From positions 186,001 through 250,000 of the forward strand of contig JAIXWD010000007.1 in assembly GCA_027482225.1 (NCBI GenBank): a stretch of DNA of 64,000 nt. Reading direction: 5' to 3'. Under the pieces are notes generated by a model, which worked only from the letters and a program-made list of their open reading frames with translations, was not told where the DNA came from and did not search any database. Source of the DNA: Bacteroidota bacterium (GTDB taxonomy: Bacteria; Bacteroidota; Bacteroidia; UKL13-3). How positions within the stretch are numbered: position 1 is the first letter of the stretch; every line of letters starts with the position of its first letter. A program made the position numbers and the translations under genes. Shown piece by piece: positions 1,819 through 14,118 of the stretch.

Positions 1819-3153
1819 ATGCGCGTACATTTTATATCTATTGGCGGAGCAGTAATGCATAATCTTGCTTTAGCTTTACATAATAAGGGGTTTAAAGTTA
1901 CAGGAAGTGATGATGAAATATATGAACCTGCTAAAAGCAGGTTAGATAAAGCAGGTATTTTACCTCCAAAAATTGGTTGGAATACAGAAAACATTACATC
2001 AAATTTAGATGCCATAGTATTGGGTATGCATGCACGCAAAGACAATCCCGAGCTAATTAAAGCCCAAGAATTAGGTTTAAAGATATACTCATTCCCCGAG
2101 TATATGTACGAACAAACAAAAGATAAAAAACGCATTGTGGTTGGCGGCAGCCATGGTAAAACTAGTACAACGGCCATGATTCTGTTTGTACTTAAATATT
2201 ACAACATTGATTTTGATTATTTGGTAGGCAGTTTAATTGATGGTTTTGAAACCATGGTAGACATAAGCGAAACAAGTAAATTGGCTGTTTTTGAAGGTGA
2301 TGAGTACTTAAACTCGGCAATAGACCCAAGGCCTAAATTTCATTTTTACCATACTGAAATTGGAATAATTACAGGTATTGCATGGGATCACATTAACGTG
2401 TTTCCTACCTATGAAAACTATGTAGAGCAGTTTGAAATCTTTATTAAAGGTTTGCCTAAACATGGTGCGCTTATTTATTGTGCTGATGATAAAGAAGTAA
2501 AGCGAATAAGTGAAAACACTCCTTGCCAAGCTAGATTGATTCCCTATATCACGCCTCAAAATAAAGTGGTTGATGGAGTTACTTATTTGATTTTAAACGG
2601 AAAAGAAATTCCGTTAAAAGTATTTGGTAACCACAATTTGCAAAATATGATGGCTGCAAAATTTACATGTATAGAGGCTGGTTTAACCGAAGAGCAATTT
2701 TACGAGGCTATTCAGCATTTTAAAGGAACAGCCAAACGATTAGAAACCATAAATGAAACAGACACCTCAGTAATTTATAGAGATTTTGCACACGCACCAA
2801 GCAAACTTAAAGCTACAGTTAATGCAGTTAAAAACCTTTATCCAAATCGTAAATTAATTGCTGCATACGAGTTGCATACCTACAGCAGTTTAAATAAAGC
2901 CTTTTTACCACACTATAATCAATGTATGAATGAAGCAGATGTATGTGCGGTATTGTTTAGCAAGCATGCTTTGGAAATGAAAAAAATGCCTATGCTTAAT
3001 GAAGATGAAGTAGCTGAGGGTTTTGGAGGAGATGTTAAAGTTTTTACAGATAAAAATGAATTACGTAAATTTATTGAAAGTCACTACACAGGTAATGAAA
3101 ACTTGTTACTAATGAGCAGTGGAACTTTTGATGGCATGGATATGCAATTTTAG
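1819..3153 (+). CDS. mpl: UDP-N-acetylmuramate:L-alanyl-gamma-D-glutamyl-meso-diaminopimelate ligase (Mpl)
   Basis: 444 residues with Mur-ligase architecture: a Rossmann-like N-domain beginning VHFISIGG, the ATP-binding P-loop VVGGSHGKTSTTAMI near residue 110, the central-domain motif ITGIAWDHINVFPTYENY, and the C-domain motif YRDFAHAPSKLKATV. Mpl reattaches recycled tripeptide to UDP-MurNAc in the cytoplasm, which implies meso-DAP peptidoglycan and turnover recycling. The HAPSK form and lack of the MurC N-terminal pattern favour Mpl over MurC. The ATG at 1819 begins exactly at the dinucleotide-like fold. It is monocistronic by spacing, with about 220 bases of AT-rich intergenic DNA upstream. 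Confidence 0.9.
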   Translation: MRVHFISIGGAVMHNLALALHNKGFKVTGSDDEIYEPAKSRLDKAGILPPKIGWNTENITSNLDAIVLGMHARKDNPELIKAQELGLKIYSFPEYMYEQTKDKKRIVVGGSHGKTSTTAMILFVLKYYNIDFDYLVGSLIDGFETMVDISETSKLAVFEGDEYLNSAIDPRPKFHFYHTEIGIITGIAWDHINVFPTYENYVEQFEIFIKGLPKHGALIYCADDKEVKRISENTPCQARLIPYITPQNKVVDGVTYLILNGKEIPLKVFGNHNLQNMMAAKFTCIEAGLTEEQFYEAIQHFKGTAKRLETINETDTSVIYRDFAHAPSKLKATVNAVKNLYPNRKLIAAYELHTYSSLNKAFLPHYNQCMNEADVCAVLFSKHALEMKKMPMLNEDEVAEGFGGDVKVFTDKNELRKFIESHYTGNENLLLMSSGTFDGMDMQF

Positions 3154-3344
3154 AAATTGAGTTATTCAGGTAGATGTAGGCCTCAGCTTTATATCTAGGT
3201 TGTTGATTTTATTTAATGTTTTGTGCCACAATACGTAATTTAAATATTGATAATGTATGATTTATATTTATTATTACACTTTAATAGCAAGTAATTTTAT
3301 AAATTCTCGTCAAATCATTATTAGAAATATTATATTCTATTTAA

Positions 3345-4019
3345 ATGAGATTTGTATTTACCCTTCTTTTACTACTGTTTATCAATGTAATTATTGTTAA
3401 GGCGCAGCATGCACAAATATCGTTTATCCCCAAATGGCAAAATCAAGTTTTAGAATTAGGTAAATATTACCCTCTTTCAAGTATAGACAGTGTTAAGGTT
3501 GATGTGGTAAAATTTTATATTACCAATATCAGCTTTTGGAAACAAGGAAAGCAAGTTTATGCAAGCCCTATTAAATACCATTTAATAGATTTAGAAAATA
3601 ATACCGTAATTAAATTAAACCTACCGTCAAAACTTTCTTATGATACGATTCAGTTTTTTATTGGTACAGATAGCGTAGCGAACTCAACTGGAGCAAAAGC
3701 TGGAGATTTAGATCCGATGTATGGCATGTATTGGGCATGGCAAAGTGGCTATATTAATGTTAAAATAGAAGGTTCAAGTTCAGTTTGTAAAACACGTAAA
3801 AATGCATTTCAATATCATTTAGGTGGATACTTAAGCCCTAATCAAACCTTACAACAACTGGCATTTGCTAATACAAGTAATAATATTAACATAGCTATTT
3901 TAATTGATAGTATTCTTCAACATCATACCTTAATAAATACAACAGAGGTGATGTCGCCTAGTGTACATGCTGTAAAATATATGCAACAGTTTAAACAATC
4001 TTTTCAATTGGTAAGATGA
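3345..4019 (+). CDS. MbnP-like copper-associated secreted protein
   Basis: 224 residues with a signal peptide (hydrophobic 3-20, cleavage near VKAQ). The body matches the MbnP family: FYITNISFWKQG, the core PMYGMYWAWQSGYINVKIEG (Trp130, Trp132), then FQYHLGGY. In characterised methanotroph relatives, MbnP is a periplasmic copper protein in which a Trp is oxidised to kynurenine by the partner dihaem enzyme MbnH. That function is inferred here, not shown. The gene overlaps the following peroxidase gene by ATGA (4016-4019), indicating translational coupling. It starts a three-gene unit with the YHYH protein. Confidence 0.85.
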   Translation: MRFVFTLLLLLFINVIIVKAQHAQISFIPKWQNQVLELGKYYPLSSIDSVKVDVVKFYITNISFWKQGKQVYASPIKYHLIDLENNTVIKLNLPSKLSYDTIQFFIGTDSVANSTGAKAGDLDPMYGMYWAWQSGYINVKIEGSSSVCKTRKNAFQYHLGGYLSPNQTLQQLAFANTSNNINIAILIDSILQHHTLINTTEVMSPSVHAVKYMQQFKQSFQLVR

Positions 4020-5071
4020 AAAAACAAGTTGTGGTAATATTAGGGTTAGTTGCAATTATTACATTGTTTGCTTTTGTAGCTAAAGTGCACTTTTTATACC
4101 CTAAACATTTTCCTAAACCAATTTATAATTTCAACAATAACAAATTAACTGAGTCTAAAATACTTTTAGGCAAAGCATTGTTTTATGATCCAATACTATC
4201 AAAAGATGGAAGTATTTCCTGCTCCTCGTGCCACAACTCTTACAATGCCTTTGCACATACTGACCACGAGTTAAGTCATGGAATTAACGACCAAATAGGA
4301 TTTAGAAATGCACCAGCATTATTTAACTTAGCTTGGCAACAACATTTTATGTGGGATGGTGCAATCAATCACCTCGATATGCAAGCGCTTGCTCCAATCA
4401 ATCACCCAAAAGAAATGGGAGAAAACTTATTAGATGTAGTAATTAAATTACAAGCATCCCCGCTATACAAAACACTTTTTAAACGTGCTTTTAATGATAC
4501 AATTGTTACTGGCGAACGTCTATTAAAAGCCATGTCGCAATTTGAACTAACCCTTATTTCTGCTAACAGTAAATACGATAAGGTGATGGAAAAGCAGACA
4601 GACTTTACTGAACAAGAAAAAAGTGGCTACACCCTATTTAAACAACATTGTAACAGTTGCCATACAGAGCCTTTGTTCTCTAGTTACGGGTTTGCCAACA
4701 ATGGATTGCCAGTTGATACAACCTTAAATGATTATGGCAAATTGAACATCACCCAAAAAAGTGAAGACAGTTTAATGTTTAAGATTCCAACTTTACGCAA
4801 CTTAAGCTATACCTATCCATACATGCACGATGGGCGTTTTAAGAAGCTATACGAAGTACTTCAACATTACACAAAAGGGGTTAAACAGAGTGCTACTTTA
4901 GCACATCAATTAAAAAATAACATAACCCTATCTGCTAATCAAAAAACAGACTTGCTAGCCTTTATGCTTACCTTAAACGATTCGGTATTTGTGTTTAATC
5001 CAAATCATAGATATCCGCACCAAGTATTTAACTCACACCAAACAAACAAAATACAAACAAACAAACTATAA
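4016..5071 (+). CDS. MbnH-like dihaem cytochrome c peroxidase family protein
   Basis: 351 residues. An N-terminal hydrophobic segment (7-23) exports or anchors it to the periplasm. It has two c-type haem sites, C69-S-S-C-H73 and C212-N-S-C-H216. It also shows the MauG/CcpA-family features GKALFYDPILSKDGSISC, FRNAPALFNLAW, and FKIPTLRNLSYTYPYMHDGRF. Family members either reduce H2O2 or oxidise a partner protein through a high-valent bis-Fe state. The overlap with the MbnP-like gene argues for the latter, with that protein as substrate. The C-terminus is low-complexity (HQTNKIQTNKL). The next gene starts two bases after the stop. Confidence 0.88.
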   Translation: MKKQVVVILGLVAIITLFAFVAKVHFLYPKHFPKPIYNFNNNKLTESKILLGKALFYDPILSKDGSISCSSCHNSYNAFAHTDHELSHGINDQIGFRNAPALFNLAWQQHFMWDGAINHLDMQALAPINHPKEMGENLLDVVIKLQASPLYKTLFKRAFNDTIVTGERLLKAMSQFELTLISANSKYDKVMEKQTDFTEQEKSGYTLFKQHCNSCHTEPLFSSYGFANNGLPVDTTLNDYGKLNITQKSEDSLMFKIPTLRNLSYTYPYMHDGRFKKLYEVLQHYTKGVKQSATLAHQLKNNITLSANQKTDLLAFMLTLNDSVFVFNPNHRYPHQVFNSHQTNKIQTNKL

Positions 5072-5073
5072 TT

Positions 5074-6444
5074 ATGAAAAAACAATTTCTTTACGTATTT
5101 ACATTTCTTTGTGTTACACATATAAATGCACAAAGTCCTGCAATTACATCGTGGCTGCAAAATAATACACAAACTGGTACTTATTACGTTGCTGGTAATT
5201 CAAACAAAATCAACAACAACATTTTAGTAAACTGCCAAAAAGTAGAGTATAGCGCAAATAGTGTTTATGTCACTACATCAGGTATTCCAGCATATCCAAC
5301 AGGCCCATTTTTAGATAATAACCCATCACAAGCCTCTAATCAATCAGCAATTTTCAAGTTTCCACTTTCACCAACTAAAAACAACGGCACGCCTAACAAC
5401 ACAATTGGAGGAAACATTGGCGTTTTTATTAATGGTGTGGCTTTATTTGATTACCGTGATGGTGTGGCATGGAACACATCAACCAACTCACTTTGCGGTG
5501 GACCCGGTAGGACGCCTTGTCCTGGTGGACCAATGACCACACAAGCTTGGAACCGAGACGCAGTATTGGCCGAAAAACCTGGTTTTGATTGCTCAAAAGG
5601 TCATCCCGCCAATGGGAATTATCACCATCACCAAAATCCATCCGCTTTTAAACTTGATTTAAATGTAATTTCAACCGTATGTAATTTATATGATGCGGAT
5701 GGTTTATACACTATTGATAGCACAAAGCATTCGCCATTAATTGGTTTTGCTTATGATGGATTTCCAATATATGGTGCATATGGATTTAAAAACACAGATG
5801 GTACTGGTAGCATTACGCGTATTAAATCGGGATACCAATTGCGTAATATTTCAACACGTACATTACATGCAAATGGAACAGACGTAAGTGACGGCCCTGT
5901 TATTAGTGCTACCTATCCTTTAGGTTATTTTAGAGAGGATTACGAATTTATTACACATACCAATGAAGCTGATTATTTAGATGAGCACAATGGTCGTTTT
6001 TGTGTTACACCCGAGTATCCAAATGGAACATATGCCTATTTTGCTACGGTTGATAAAAATTGGAATTCAGCCTATCCTTATGCTGTTGGACCAACATTTT
6101 ATGGTGTTTTTGATAACAGAAAAGTTACATCGATAACTGAAACAACAACTGTATACAAACCAGTAACAGGGTTAAGTAACAATGAATTTAATCAACTTGT
6201 TTTTAATGCATTCCCTAATCCAACAAACGATATAATTGCTATACAAGTTGGTAGTTTGGTTAAAGACGATTTAACAATAGAGTTATTTGATTTAACGGGG
6301 AAGTTGGTTGCAAAAACTCAACTAAACAAAGGCAGTACCATTGCTTATTTTGATGTACAAACTTTATATAACGGTACTTATATAGTGGTAATTAGTAATG
6401 GCGTAAATCATTTTACACAAAAAATAGTGATTAATAAAAACTAG
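5074..6444 (+). CDS. YHYH domain protein with T9SS type A sorting domain
   Basis: 456 residues. The signal peptide is 1-20 (FLCVTHINAQ). The central part (about 60-340) matches the YHYH family: DYRDGVAWN, GNYHHHQNP (YHYH signature as YHHH), GFAYDGFPIYGAYG, and NGRFCVTPEYPNGTYAYF. The last 75 residues form a Por secretion/T9SS C-terminal domain (FNAFPNPTNDIIAIQV ... YNGTYIVVI ... QKIVINKN). The protein is therefore expected to cross the outer membrane and be anchored or released. YHYH function is not established. Clustered His residues plus the copper-type neighbours suggest metal binding at the surface (inference). It is the last gene of the cassette, with a strong terminator just downstream. 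Confidence 0.88.
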   Translation: MKKQFLYVFTFLCVTHINAQSPAITSWLQNNTQTGTYYVAGNSNKINNNILVNCQKVEYSANSVYVTTSGIPAYPTGPFLDNNPSQASNQSAIFKFPLSPTKNNGTPNNTIGGNIGVFINGVALFDYRDGVAWNTSTNSLCGGPGRTPCPGGPMTTQAWNRDAVLAEKPGFDCSKGHPANGNYHHHQNPSAFKLDLNVISTVCNLYDADGLYTIDSTKHSPLIGFAYDGFPIYGAYGFKNTDGTGSITRIKSGYQLRNISTRTLHANGTDVSDGPVISATYPLGYFREDYEFITHTNEADYLDEHNGRFCVTPEYPNGTYAYFATVDKNWNSAYPYAVGPTFYGVFDNRKVTSITETTTVYKPVTGLSNNEFNQLVFNAFPNPTNDIIAIQVGSLVKDDLTIELFDLTGKLVAKTQLNKGSTIAYFDVQTLYNGTYIVVISNGVNHFTQKIVINKN

Positions 6445-6468
6445 TATACCAATAGTTATTAATCATAT

Positions 6469-6508
6469 AAAAGCCCGAACATACAAGTATGTTCGGGCTT
6501 TTTGCTTA
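6469..6508. terminator. Bidirectional rho-independent terminator
   Basis: A perfect 15-bp stem (6469-6483 with 6488-6502) with a CAAG loop has an A-run on the left and a T-run on the right. It sits between the convergent YHYH gene and the TPR gene and can stop transcription from both sides. Confidence 0.92.
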
Positions 6509-6521
6509 TTTATAAAATTTA

Positions 6522-7178
6522 TTAACCAGGTATGCGTGCTAGGTATTTTTCTAAATCTTTAATTTGACTAACCACTTGTTCGTTTTTAGGTTTACATTTC
6601 TTAGCTCTTCTAAAAAACTCTTTTGATGCTCTAAAGTCGCGTTTATTCATATAGACTTGAACCATTCCTAAGTGAGCCATAGCTTCGCTTTCCTTGTCTG
6701 GAATACCTTTTGCCAATGCAGCTTTTAAATATTGTTCTGCCTCTTTAAAGTTGCTTTTTTGTAATGCCATCATGCCCAATTGCATTTTGTTAGCACCTTC
6801 TGTATCTGCTAATGTACTACCAATTGAAGCACTCTTTTTTAAATGTTGTTCAGCCCCATCGAAGTCTTTGTTCATCATAGCAATATTGCCCTTAAGCGTA
6901 TAAAAAGTACTGCGTATAGGTTTAAATAATAATCCAGGAAACCATACTGTATTGATGATACGCTCTACTTCTTCCATATCGCCATTTTCCATAGGCTCTT
7001 GAACCAAACGTAATGGACCAATAAAAAAATGAGTAAATACTGCTATAAACGATAAAGTGTAAAATATTATAGCAGCCCAAATATCACCCAAACCACCAAA
7101 CTGAAGTACTAAACCTATTACCAAAGATGCAACTCCAGCCCAAAGACGATATTTAATTAGAAGATTATAAAATTTCAT
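6522..7178 (-). CDS. Tetratricopeptide repeat membrane protein
   Basis: 218 residues. Two adjacent membrane segments occupy about residues 12-32 and 34-55. The rest forms about three TPR-like helix pairs (LKGNIAMMNKDFDGAEQHLKKS, MQLGMMALQKSNFKEAEQYL, AHLGMVQVYMNKRDFRASKEFF). TPRs mediate protein-protein contacts and are expected here on the cytoplasmic face. No enzymatic motif is visible and the partner is unknown. On the minus strand a TACATTTG (7205-7198), matching the Bacteroidota -7 element TAnnTTTG, lies about 20 bases before the ATG. Confidence 0.8.
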   Translation of the reverse strand: MKFYNLLIKYRLWAGVASLVIGLVLQFGGLGDIWAAIIFYTLSFIAVFTHFFIGPLRLVQEPMENGDMEEVERIINTVWFPGLLFKPIRSTFYTLKGNIAMMNKDFDGAEQHLKKSASIGSTLADTEGANKMQLGMMALQKSNFKEAEQYLKAALAKGIPDKESEAMAHLGMVQVYMNKRDFRASKEFFRRAKKCKPKNEQVVSQIKDLEKYLARIPG

Positions 7179-7549
7179 ATTGTATTTTTATTCGCTGCAA
7201 ATGTATTAAAACCTGCACAAACTCAACATAAAAAAGTAAAGGCCTTACCAAATACACAATTATAAAAAAGCTTCCAAAACTATCAACTGTATATCAATTA
7301 TTTACCTTTGTGCCGATAACGAATTATATTATTTATTAAATAAGCACTTAAAGATTGTAATGATATATCTTTTACATGGTGTATTAAGGGCATTTAAATG
7401 TGTATAGTTTTCATGCAAATCTTTTGGCCAATCATTTTACCCAATATTGTATTTGTAATTCGTGTTTTTAATACTTAGTGTACAATAGTATTTAGAGTAA
7501 CAAATTAATTGCTGCCATCAATTTGTATAACATATAATTTATTCAATTT
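7179..7549. other. Intergenic region, no gene seen
   Basis: AT-rich DNA between two minus-strand genes. It should hold the promoter of the TPR gene (TAnnTTTG-like element at 7198-7205, minus strand) and the 3' end of the SulP transcript. I see no convincing hairpin terminator and no ORF with coding character. Confidence 0.5.
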
Positions 7550-12589: not shown

Positions 12590-12741
12590 TGCAAATAAAC
12601 AAAAAATCAGTCAGCTTATTTGGTGATTTTGATTAGTGTTTTAATCCATACCTACAATGTTAACTAATGGTAGATAACAATTACTGTAGTTATTTTTTTT
12701 TGCCAAAAAAAGTAGACACTTTTACAACAAACTTTAATACT

Positions 12742-14118
12742 ATGGCAAAGATTTTAATTATAGATGACGAGAAGGCTATTCGTACAACATTGAAAGAGAT
12801 TTTAGAATACGAAGGCTATATTGTTGATGAGGCTGCCGATGGCGCCACTGGTTTAGAGAAGATAGAAAACGATGATTATGCGGCCGTTTTGTGTGATGTA
12901 AAAATGCCTAAAATGGATGGACTTGAGGTTTTAACCAAAGCACATGAAATTGATGACGATATTCCTTTCGTAATGATATCTGGACATGGCACCATTGAAA
13001 CTGCCGTGGAAGCAACCAAAAAAGGTGCATATGATTTCATTTCAAAACCACCTGATTTAAATCGTTTATTAATTACCCTGCGCAATGCCATCGACCGCAA
13101 AAGTATGGTGGTTGAAAACAAGGTGTTAAAGCGTAAAGTGGGCAAAACACGCGAAATTATTGGTGATAGTCCTGCTATCATGAATATAATTGAAACAATT
13201 GACAAAGTTGCACCTACCGATGCTCGAGTACTAATTACAGGTGAAAACGGAACTGGTAAAGAATTGGTAGCTCGCTGGATCCATGAAAAAAGCAACCGTG
13301 CAAAAAATACCTTAATTGAAGTAAACTGTGCCGCTATTCCTACCGAGCTAATTGAGAGTGAACTGTTTGGCCATGAAAAAGGTGCATTTACCTCAGCTTT
13401 AAAACAACGCATTGGAAAGTTTGAACAAGCACATGAGGGTACTTTGTTTTTAGATGAAATTGGCGACATGAGCCTAGGTGCACAAGCCAAGGTTTTACGT
13501 GCATTACAAGAAAATAAAATTACTCGCGTAGGTGGCGACAAGGATATTGAAGTAAATGTTAGGGTAATTGCTGCAACCAATAAAGACTTATTAAAGGAAA
13601 TAGAAAAAGGTAATTTCCGTATGGATTTATATCACCGTTTAAGTGTAATTTTAATACACGTACCAAGCCTTAACGAGCGTAAAGACGATATTCCATTACT
13701 TGCCGAAAGGTTTGTTAAAGAAGTATGTGAAGATAACGGTGTTTCCAAAAAAATGTTTACACCAAATGCATTAAACGAACTAAAGAAAATGAATTGGAGT
13801 GGTAACATTCGTGAATTGCGCAACTTAGTAGAACGTTTAATTATATTAAGCGGACAACGTATAACAGAGGAAGATGTTGTAAAATATGCGAGCCCAAGCC
13901 ACAGCCAAAGCAACGAAAAAAGTGTGTTCGAAAAATTCTCGACCCTGCAAGATTTTAAAGACCATGTAGAGAAGATTTTTATTGAAGAAAAACTAAAAAA
14001 GAACGGCTGGAATGTGGCCAAAACTGCTCAAGAAATTGACATACAACGTAGCCACTTGTATAACAAAATTGAGAAATACAGCCTACGAAGAGGCGAGGTT
14101 AGTGAAATAAATTTGTAA
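12742..14118 (+). CDS. Sigma-54-dependent response regulator (NtrC/AtoC family)
   Basis: 458 residues from the ATG at 12742; an upstream in-frame ATG at 12667 adds 25 residues that fit no domain, so I reject it. Domains: receiver (1-120, phospho-acceptor Asp52 in CDVKMP, SGHG, FISKPP), AAA+ domain (about 145-375, Walker A GENGTGKE, Walker B LFLDEIGDM) and Fis-type HTH (about 410-455, WNVAKTAQEIDIQRSHLYNKI). The sigma-54 contact loop reads GAFTSA rather than GAFTGA. It activates RpoN promoters in the cytoplasm. No histidine kinase is nearby, so the signal is unknown. A hairpin terminator follows. Confidence 0.93.
   Translation: MAKILIIDDEKAIRTTLKEILEYEGYIVDEAADGATGLEKIENDDYAAVLCDVKMPKMDGLEVLTKAHEIDDDIPFVMISGHGTIETAVEATKKGAYDFISKPPDLNRLLITLRNAIDRKSMVVENKVLKRKVGKTREIIGDSPAIMNIIETIDKVAPTDARVLITGENGTGKELVARWIHEKSNRAKNTLIEVNCAAIPTELIESELFGHEKGAFTSALKQRIGKFEQAHEGTLFLDEIGDMSLGAQAKVLRALQENKITRVGGDKDIEVNVRVIAATNKDLLKEIEKGNFRMDLYHRLSVILIHVPSLNERKDDIPLLAERFVKEVCEDNGVSKKMFTPNALNELKKMNWSGNIRELRNLVERLIILSGQRITEEDVVKYASPSHSQSNEKSVFEKFSTLQDFKDHVEKIFIEEKLKKNGWNVAKTAQEIDIQRSHLYNKIEKYSLRRGEVSEINL

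Follow-up and report, generated by a model that had tools for sequence, protein, structure and literature searches.

The locus and its three products

The window analysed here is a 64,000-nucleotide stretch of DNA from a Bacteroidota bacterium. Three open reading frames located close to its beginning, at 3345–4019, 4016–5071 and 5074–6444, all on the + strand, encode an MbnP-family protein, a dihaem enzyme of the MbnH/MauG type and a YHYH protein with a C-terminal tail of the type IX secretion system (T9SS). The features of the locus are as follows.

3345–4019, + strand: MbnP-family protein, 224 aa (PF20243, E 2.3e-35, 122.7 bits, cut-off 27)
3726–3740, + strand: Met128-x-Trp130-x-Trp132 of MbnP, invariant in 28 of 28 homologues, corresponding to GMAWNWQAG of 7l6g
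3816–3818, + strand: His158 of the HLGG motif of MbnP, putative copper ligand alongside Met128, kept in 27 of 28 homologues
4016–5071, + strand: MbnH/MauG-type dihaem enzyme, 351 aa, with an N-terminal signal or anchor (PF03150, E 2e-53)
4220–4234, + strand: first haem motif CSSCH (residues 69–73), invariant in 29 of 29 sequences
4649–4663, + strand: second haem motif CNSCH (residues 212–216), invariant in 29 of 29
4868–4870, + strand: Tyr285 of the enzyme, Tyr in 29 of 29, aligned to the Tyr of 6e1c and to the Met axial ligand of 1iqc
5074–6444, + strand: YHYH protein, 456 aa, with a signal peptide and a T9SS type A tail (PF14240, E 1.6e-56; PF18962, E 1.3e-14)
5620–5631, + strand: YHHH (residues 183–186), centre of the His cluster of the YHYH protein; Y183, H184 and H186 kept in 39 of 39 homologues, H185 in 36 of 39
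6211–6432, + strand: T9SS C-terminal sorting domain (residues 380–453; TIGR04183, 43.8 bits, cut-off 23; fold match to the mirolase C-terminal domain, 8qb1)
6469–6502, + strand: intrinsic terminator with 15 pairs and a T tract, the sole + strand site detected within 3100–6600

The tetranucleotide ATGA at 4016–4019 contains both the stop codon of the MbnP gene and the start codon of the MbnH gene, and the YHYH gene starts 2 bases past the MbnH stop. Given this overlap, the short gap and the terminator, the layout predicts a single transcription unit. The same overlap (−4) was found in 34 of the 59 MbnP–MbnH pairs for which the distance was measured. The initial annotation had described a MbnP–MbnH–YHYH cassette with an ATGA overlap of the first two genes, a MYWAWQSGY core around Trp130 and Trp132 of MbnP, and a T9SS-tailed YHYH protein at the end of the unit; each of these elements was found in place, and the residue numbering was right.

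Two further features were observed downstream. A stretch of 37 aa at 7351–7461 on the − strand, between a TPR gene and a SulP transporter gene, may be a degenerate C-terminal remnant of a beta-carbonic anhydrase (38% identity, E 0.02); two genomes of this genus, G002 and G005, have an intact 210-aa carbonic anhydrase gene at exactly that position. A gene for a sigma-54-dependent response regulator lies at 12667–14118.

The first protein has a Sec-type signal peptide and neither a lipobox nor a T9SS tail. Since its sequence gave no match in a search against solved structures, its identity was settled by fold comparison. Against 7l6g, the solved structure of Methylosinus trichosporium MbnP, the model (pLDDT 90) gave a Z-score of 16.8 over 202 residues (rmsd 2.9 Å), whereas the next unrelated entry reached only 4.8; sequence identity to 7l6g is approximately 15%. 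An MbnP relative from Deinococcus produced a weak sequence match to 7l6g (E 0.14). In Deinococcus grandis (plasmid AP021851.1, locus L182), an MbnP-like gene is followed by CopC-like and MbnH-like genes within 2 kb, a grouping that speaks for a copper role. The NCBIfam MbnP equivalog TIGR04052 was matched by the window protein with 32.4 bits, far below the cut-off of 140, and hence the protein represents a divergent branch: it belongs to the Pfam family and has the MbnP fold, but lies outside the equivalog. It has one Cys and so does not carry the four-Cys motif of the older name of the family.

Both Trp residues, whose conservation among homologues had been singled out for checking, were invariant in the 28 aligned sequences, and in a larger set both the MxWxW and HxGG motifs were present in 88 of 90 MbnP ORFs from three-gene loci. 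In the OB3b protein (7l6g) the first Trp of WxW is reportedly converted to kynurenine, with a Met and a His holding Cu(I). By this parallel, Trp130 is the expected kynurenine site of the window MbnP, Met128 and His158 are its probable Cu(I) ligands, and copper binding would be expected from family membership. The sole exception at His158 among the 28 sequences is the second MbnP of the same genome, which has Asp at this position. It is encoded by an MbnP–MauG pair on another contig (locus L001, contig C6, 286–2151) with no YHYH gene in the stretch fetched. Many YHYH-free pairs of the relatives likewise have Asp instead of the HLGG His, which may mean a different copper site or none.

The enzyme retains two haem motifs, and its family profile had 6e1c ("Di-heme enzyme"), which we take to be MbnH of OB3b, as the best PDB match (E 3.1e-62). 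Peroxidases follow closely (E 1.8e-58), and the scores against both TIGR04039 (MbnH, 200.8 bits, curated cut-off 362.85) and TIGR03791 (MauG, 185 bits) are below the curated cut-offs. Together with the low TIGR04052 score of the MbnP protein, this similarity could be read to mean that the enzyme is a plain peroxidase and its neighbour a structural or unrelated periplasmic protein, so that no kynurenine is formed. We consider this highly unlikely, because the position of the Met axial ligand is occupied by Tyr285 in all sequences, the best structural match is 6e1c rather than a peroxidase, WxW is invariant, and the fold of MbnP was matched. The invariant Tyr at the peroxidase Met position favours Trp oxidation, with kynurenine formation, as the probable activity of the window enzyme. 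The assignment of the first two genes to the MbnP–MbnH pair is strong.

The YHYH domain of the third protein scored 191.8 bits against PF14240 (cut-off 25). In addition to the YHHH core, its His cluster includes H177 (39 of 39 homologues), H219 and H305 (38 of 39 each), and the acidic residues D228, D289 and D303 are nearly invariant. Structure prediction, as proposed initially, yielded the 7l6g fold for MbnP. For the YHYH part, whose model is poorly predicted around residues 196–206, no informative match was obtained, as matches to the T9SS tail took up the whole list.

Recurrence of the trio

Among 97 relatives, 84 genomes have MbnP and 47 have YHYH. We defined strong YHYH genes as those with E below 1e-30, which gave 50 genes in these relatives. 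A same-strand MbnP–MbnH pair adjoins 28 of them, and two further cases are likely. The order is MbnP–MbnH–YHYH in 25 of the 28 (some with one inserted gene) and YHYH–MbnP–MbnH in three. If positions were independent, approximately 0.4 YHYH genes would be expected beside a pair, this being a rough estimate in which each genome is assumed to have 2.3 MbnP genes. Across 296 genomes sampled from the whole phylum, a link to a pair was found for 7 of approximately 22 strong YHYH genes (this genome excluded), compared to approximately 0.15 expected. The co-occurrence of the three genes, suggested initially as a check, therefore extends well beyond the window.

The adjacent MbnP–MbnH–YHYH arrangement in its strict form was observed in 56 of 80 named loci, a sample that was found with the YHYH profile and is biased to YHYH proteins of the window type. 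Trios were found, among other named hosts, in Saprospiraceae, Flavobacteriales, Crocinitomicaceae, Ignavibacteria and Kapaibacterium. When 99 MbnP sequences were placed on a tree, linkage to YHYH required 6 changes, compared to 25.8 in shuffles. The reverse-order loci are placed opposite the main trio group, which suggests, as far as a quick tree allows, that the link between MbnP and YHYH arose more than once. The trio is common to many Bacteroidota and related bacteria and appears to be a unit for copper handling that is widespread but unstudied. The conserved WxW site and the constant exported third partner agree with the initial description of a Bacteroidota variant of the MbnP–MbnH system.

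The YHYH domain itself is not copper-specific, given that in other members of the phylum many YHYH genes are not adjacent to MbnP and that a hydrolase function has been predicted for the domain: YHYH domains of phages were predicted to be metal-dependent hydrolases from a His triad and an Asp (PMC7824862). This is the only published functional prediction for YHYH that was found in the readable literature. It is compatible with a scheme in which the pair makes a kynurenine copper site while the YHYH protein is an exported zinc hydrolase that shares the operon owing to a common stress, no copper being passed between them. The sulfatase-fold, metallophosphatase and thioredoxin-like genes that adjoin MbnP-free YHYH genes are also in line with this scheme. 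However, YHYH is tightly co-localised with MbnP–MbnH across many contexts, and the reverse order lies on a separate part of the MbnP tree. Both points suggest that the genes are functionally connected and not just co-regulated by chance, and we regard the zinc hydrolase as rather unlikely. In six loci from relatives of one genus (L083–L087 and L101), an MbnP-free YHYH gene is located amid genes for TlpA/ResA-like thioredoxins and metallophosphatases, along with a sulfatase-fold protein, a T9SS multicopper oxidase and a second YHYH-like protein, which is longer (approximately 535 aa).

Protein location and neighbouring genes

T9SS is present in this genome, with SprA scoring 2535 bits and 94 proteins having T9SS tails. 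The tail motif was found in none of 89 MbnP and none of 96 MbnH ORFs, in 115 of 127 YHYH ORFs and in 13 of 16 ORFs of the oxidase described below. Among the proteins of these loci, only YHYH, the oxidase and a sulfatase-fold protein have the export tail; lipoboxes are rare in MbnP, MbnH and YHYH ORFs. As both tails and lipoboxes are missing in MbnP and MbnH, this pair is probably periplasmic, and YHYH is probably the only exported member of the trio. The surface system proposed in the initial annotation is thus retained for YHYH, whereas a surface location of the whole trio is ruled out for MbnP and MbnH by the absence of T9SS tails.

In approximately two fifths of the fetched trio loci we found genes encoding an ECF sigma factor, a small membrane anti-sigma protein and a CnrX/Spy-like predicted periplasmic metal sensor, usually directly upstream. 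Specifically, of the 89 loci with all three trio genes (the fetched loci, of mixed sampling), 36 contain the sigma factor and 37 the sensor. The strict order sigma factor, small ORF with a single transmembrane segment, sensor, MbnP, MbnH, YHYH was observed in 21 of the 80 named loci. Among the listed loci of the relatives it occurs in seven, with an eighth (L094) containing a divergent sensor. In a few loci (e.g. L143 and L144) the sensor is on the opposite strand. Each sensor has a single membrane helix, at the N-terminus, and 36 of 37 share a conserved His. The heavy-metal resistance family PF13801 was matched by 14 of 37 (best E 3.7e-9) and left 23 unmatched, and the sensor family profile gave no match against solved structures. 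No sensor was seen in the short loci of YHYH-free MbnP pairs, where the flanks cover only approximately 1.4 kb. The association of trio loci with sigma, anti-sigma and sensor genes is a new observation that goes beyond the initial annotation.

In 9 of the 89 trio loci there is also a gene for a T9SS-tailed, CueO-like multicopper oxidase. The counts of oxidases and sulfatases were filtered by coverage, as shared T9SS tails could inflate unfiltered ones. The sigma and sensor genes and the oxidase gene are absent from the neighbourhood of the window trio, and PF07732 (multicopper oxidase) has no match in this genome. The sensor and ECF sigma genes and the T9SS-tailed oxidases near the trios of relatives support a role in copper handling indirectly. 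Neither the trio nor its sensor genes were found in the searchable open papers, a set that does not include the main paper on MbnP genome neighbourhoods.

The same neighbourhoods bear on copper uptake under starvation, in which YHYH would scavenge copper at the surface and MbnP would receive it in the periplasm, as in methanotrophs. The kynurenine copper proteins CorA and MopE are surface-associated and repressed by copper (PMC3912023), and in the window a TonB receptor gene is located 2.6 kb upstream of the trio. However, the type of sensor encoded upstream in relatives, like their CueO-like oxidase, points to metal excess rather than shortage, and the receptor block was seen solely in the close relative G005. 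We thus consider uptake decidedly unlikely. The link to the TonB receptor was rejected as such: in G005 (L063) the trio is preceded by the receptor end, a MOSC-like gene and Mpl, but among the other fetched trio loci only Mpl recurs, in G002, so that the block looks like genus-level synteny.

Proposed copper handling and comparison with known systems

We give about even chances to a copper-handling operon in which Trp130 is oxidised, MbnP holds Cu(I) in the periplasm, and YHYH is an exported client or sink. The periplasmic dihaem MbnH would oxidise Trp130 of MbnP to kynurenine, and the matured MbnP would then hold periplasmic Cu(I). The YHYH protein with its conserved His cluster would fold in the periplasm and be transported to the surface via the type IX system. 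In the reading that we favour, MbnP would capture periplasmic copper and the exported YHYH would be its metal-dependent client or sink, so that copper is placed outside the cell. The hand-off of copper from MbnP to YHYH is the least certain step of this hypothesis, and we consider it somewhat doubtful. In the lineages with sigma, anti-sigma and CnrX-like sensor genes, metal stress is the probable inducer of the unit. A broader proposal, that the kynurenine site of MbnP is a periplasmic copper loader for T9SS-bound proteins in general (YHYH and, in relatives, the multicopper oxidase) under ECF sigma control, is speculative and seems to us improbable on balance.

Outside methanotrophs, MbnP–MbnH is a widespread pair of unclear role (PMC3621798). 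The constant, export-tailed partner, together with the upstream metal-sensor genes of many genomes, offers a concrete setting in which the role of this pair in Bacteroidota can be tested. It also poses the question by what means T9SS-exported proteins obtain metals. If true, the action of MbnP as a loading factor would constitute a route for metallating exported proteins.

The closest known system is the MbnP–MbnH pair of OB3b (7l6g, 6e1c; GenProp0940, TIGR04052/TIGR04039), which shares with the window unit the fold, the GMxWxWQxG motif, the dihaem partner bearing the Tyr and the adjacency of the genes. In contrast to the OB3b pair, the window unit has no MbnB match and no four-Cys motif, and its MbnP has diverged to the low identity given above; it includes a T9SS-exported YHYH as the third gene and, in many relatives, sigma, anti-sigma and sensor genes upstream. 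The initial annotation had noted no methanobactin gene nearby, and this holds genome-wide for MbnB, which had no match in this genome; MbnC had none either, in a search that also found no match in any control genome.

CnrYXH-type modules consist of an ECF sigma factor, an anti-sigma factor and a periplasmic sensor. The three-gene sets of the relatives resemble them in having two single-TM proteins, one of them small and the other periplasmic, helical and His-bearing. These sets, however, adjoin the trios of relatives rather than that of the window, and many of their sensors are below the detection level of PF13801. Other YHYH (PF14240) proteins share the His cluster with the window protein, whereas the window protein, approximately 455 aa long, is T9SS-tailed and linked to MbnP–MbnH, and the phage and lipoprotein versions are neither.

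MopE/SACCP of Methylococcus capsulatus and CorA/CorB of Methylomicrobium album also combine a dihaem enzyme with a copper protein in which Trp is converted to kynurenine, and involve the surface (PMC3912023, PMC3423442). MbnP proteins show no marked sequence similarity to MopE or CorA (PMC3621798). In the MopE and CorA systems the copper protein itself is at the surface, whereas in the window unit this location is predicted for the third protein alone.
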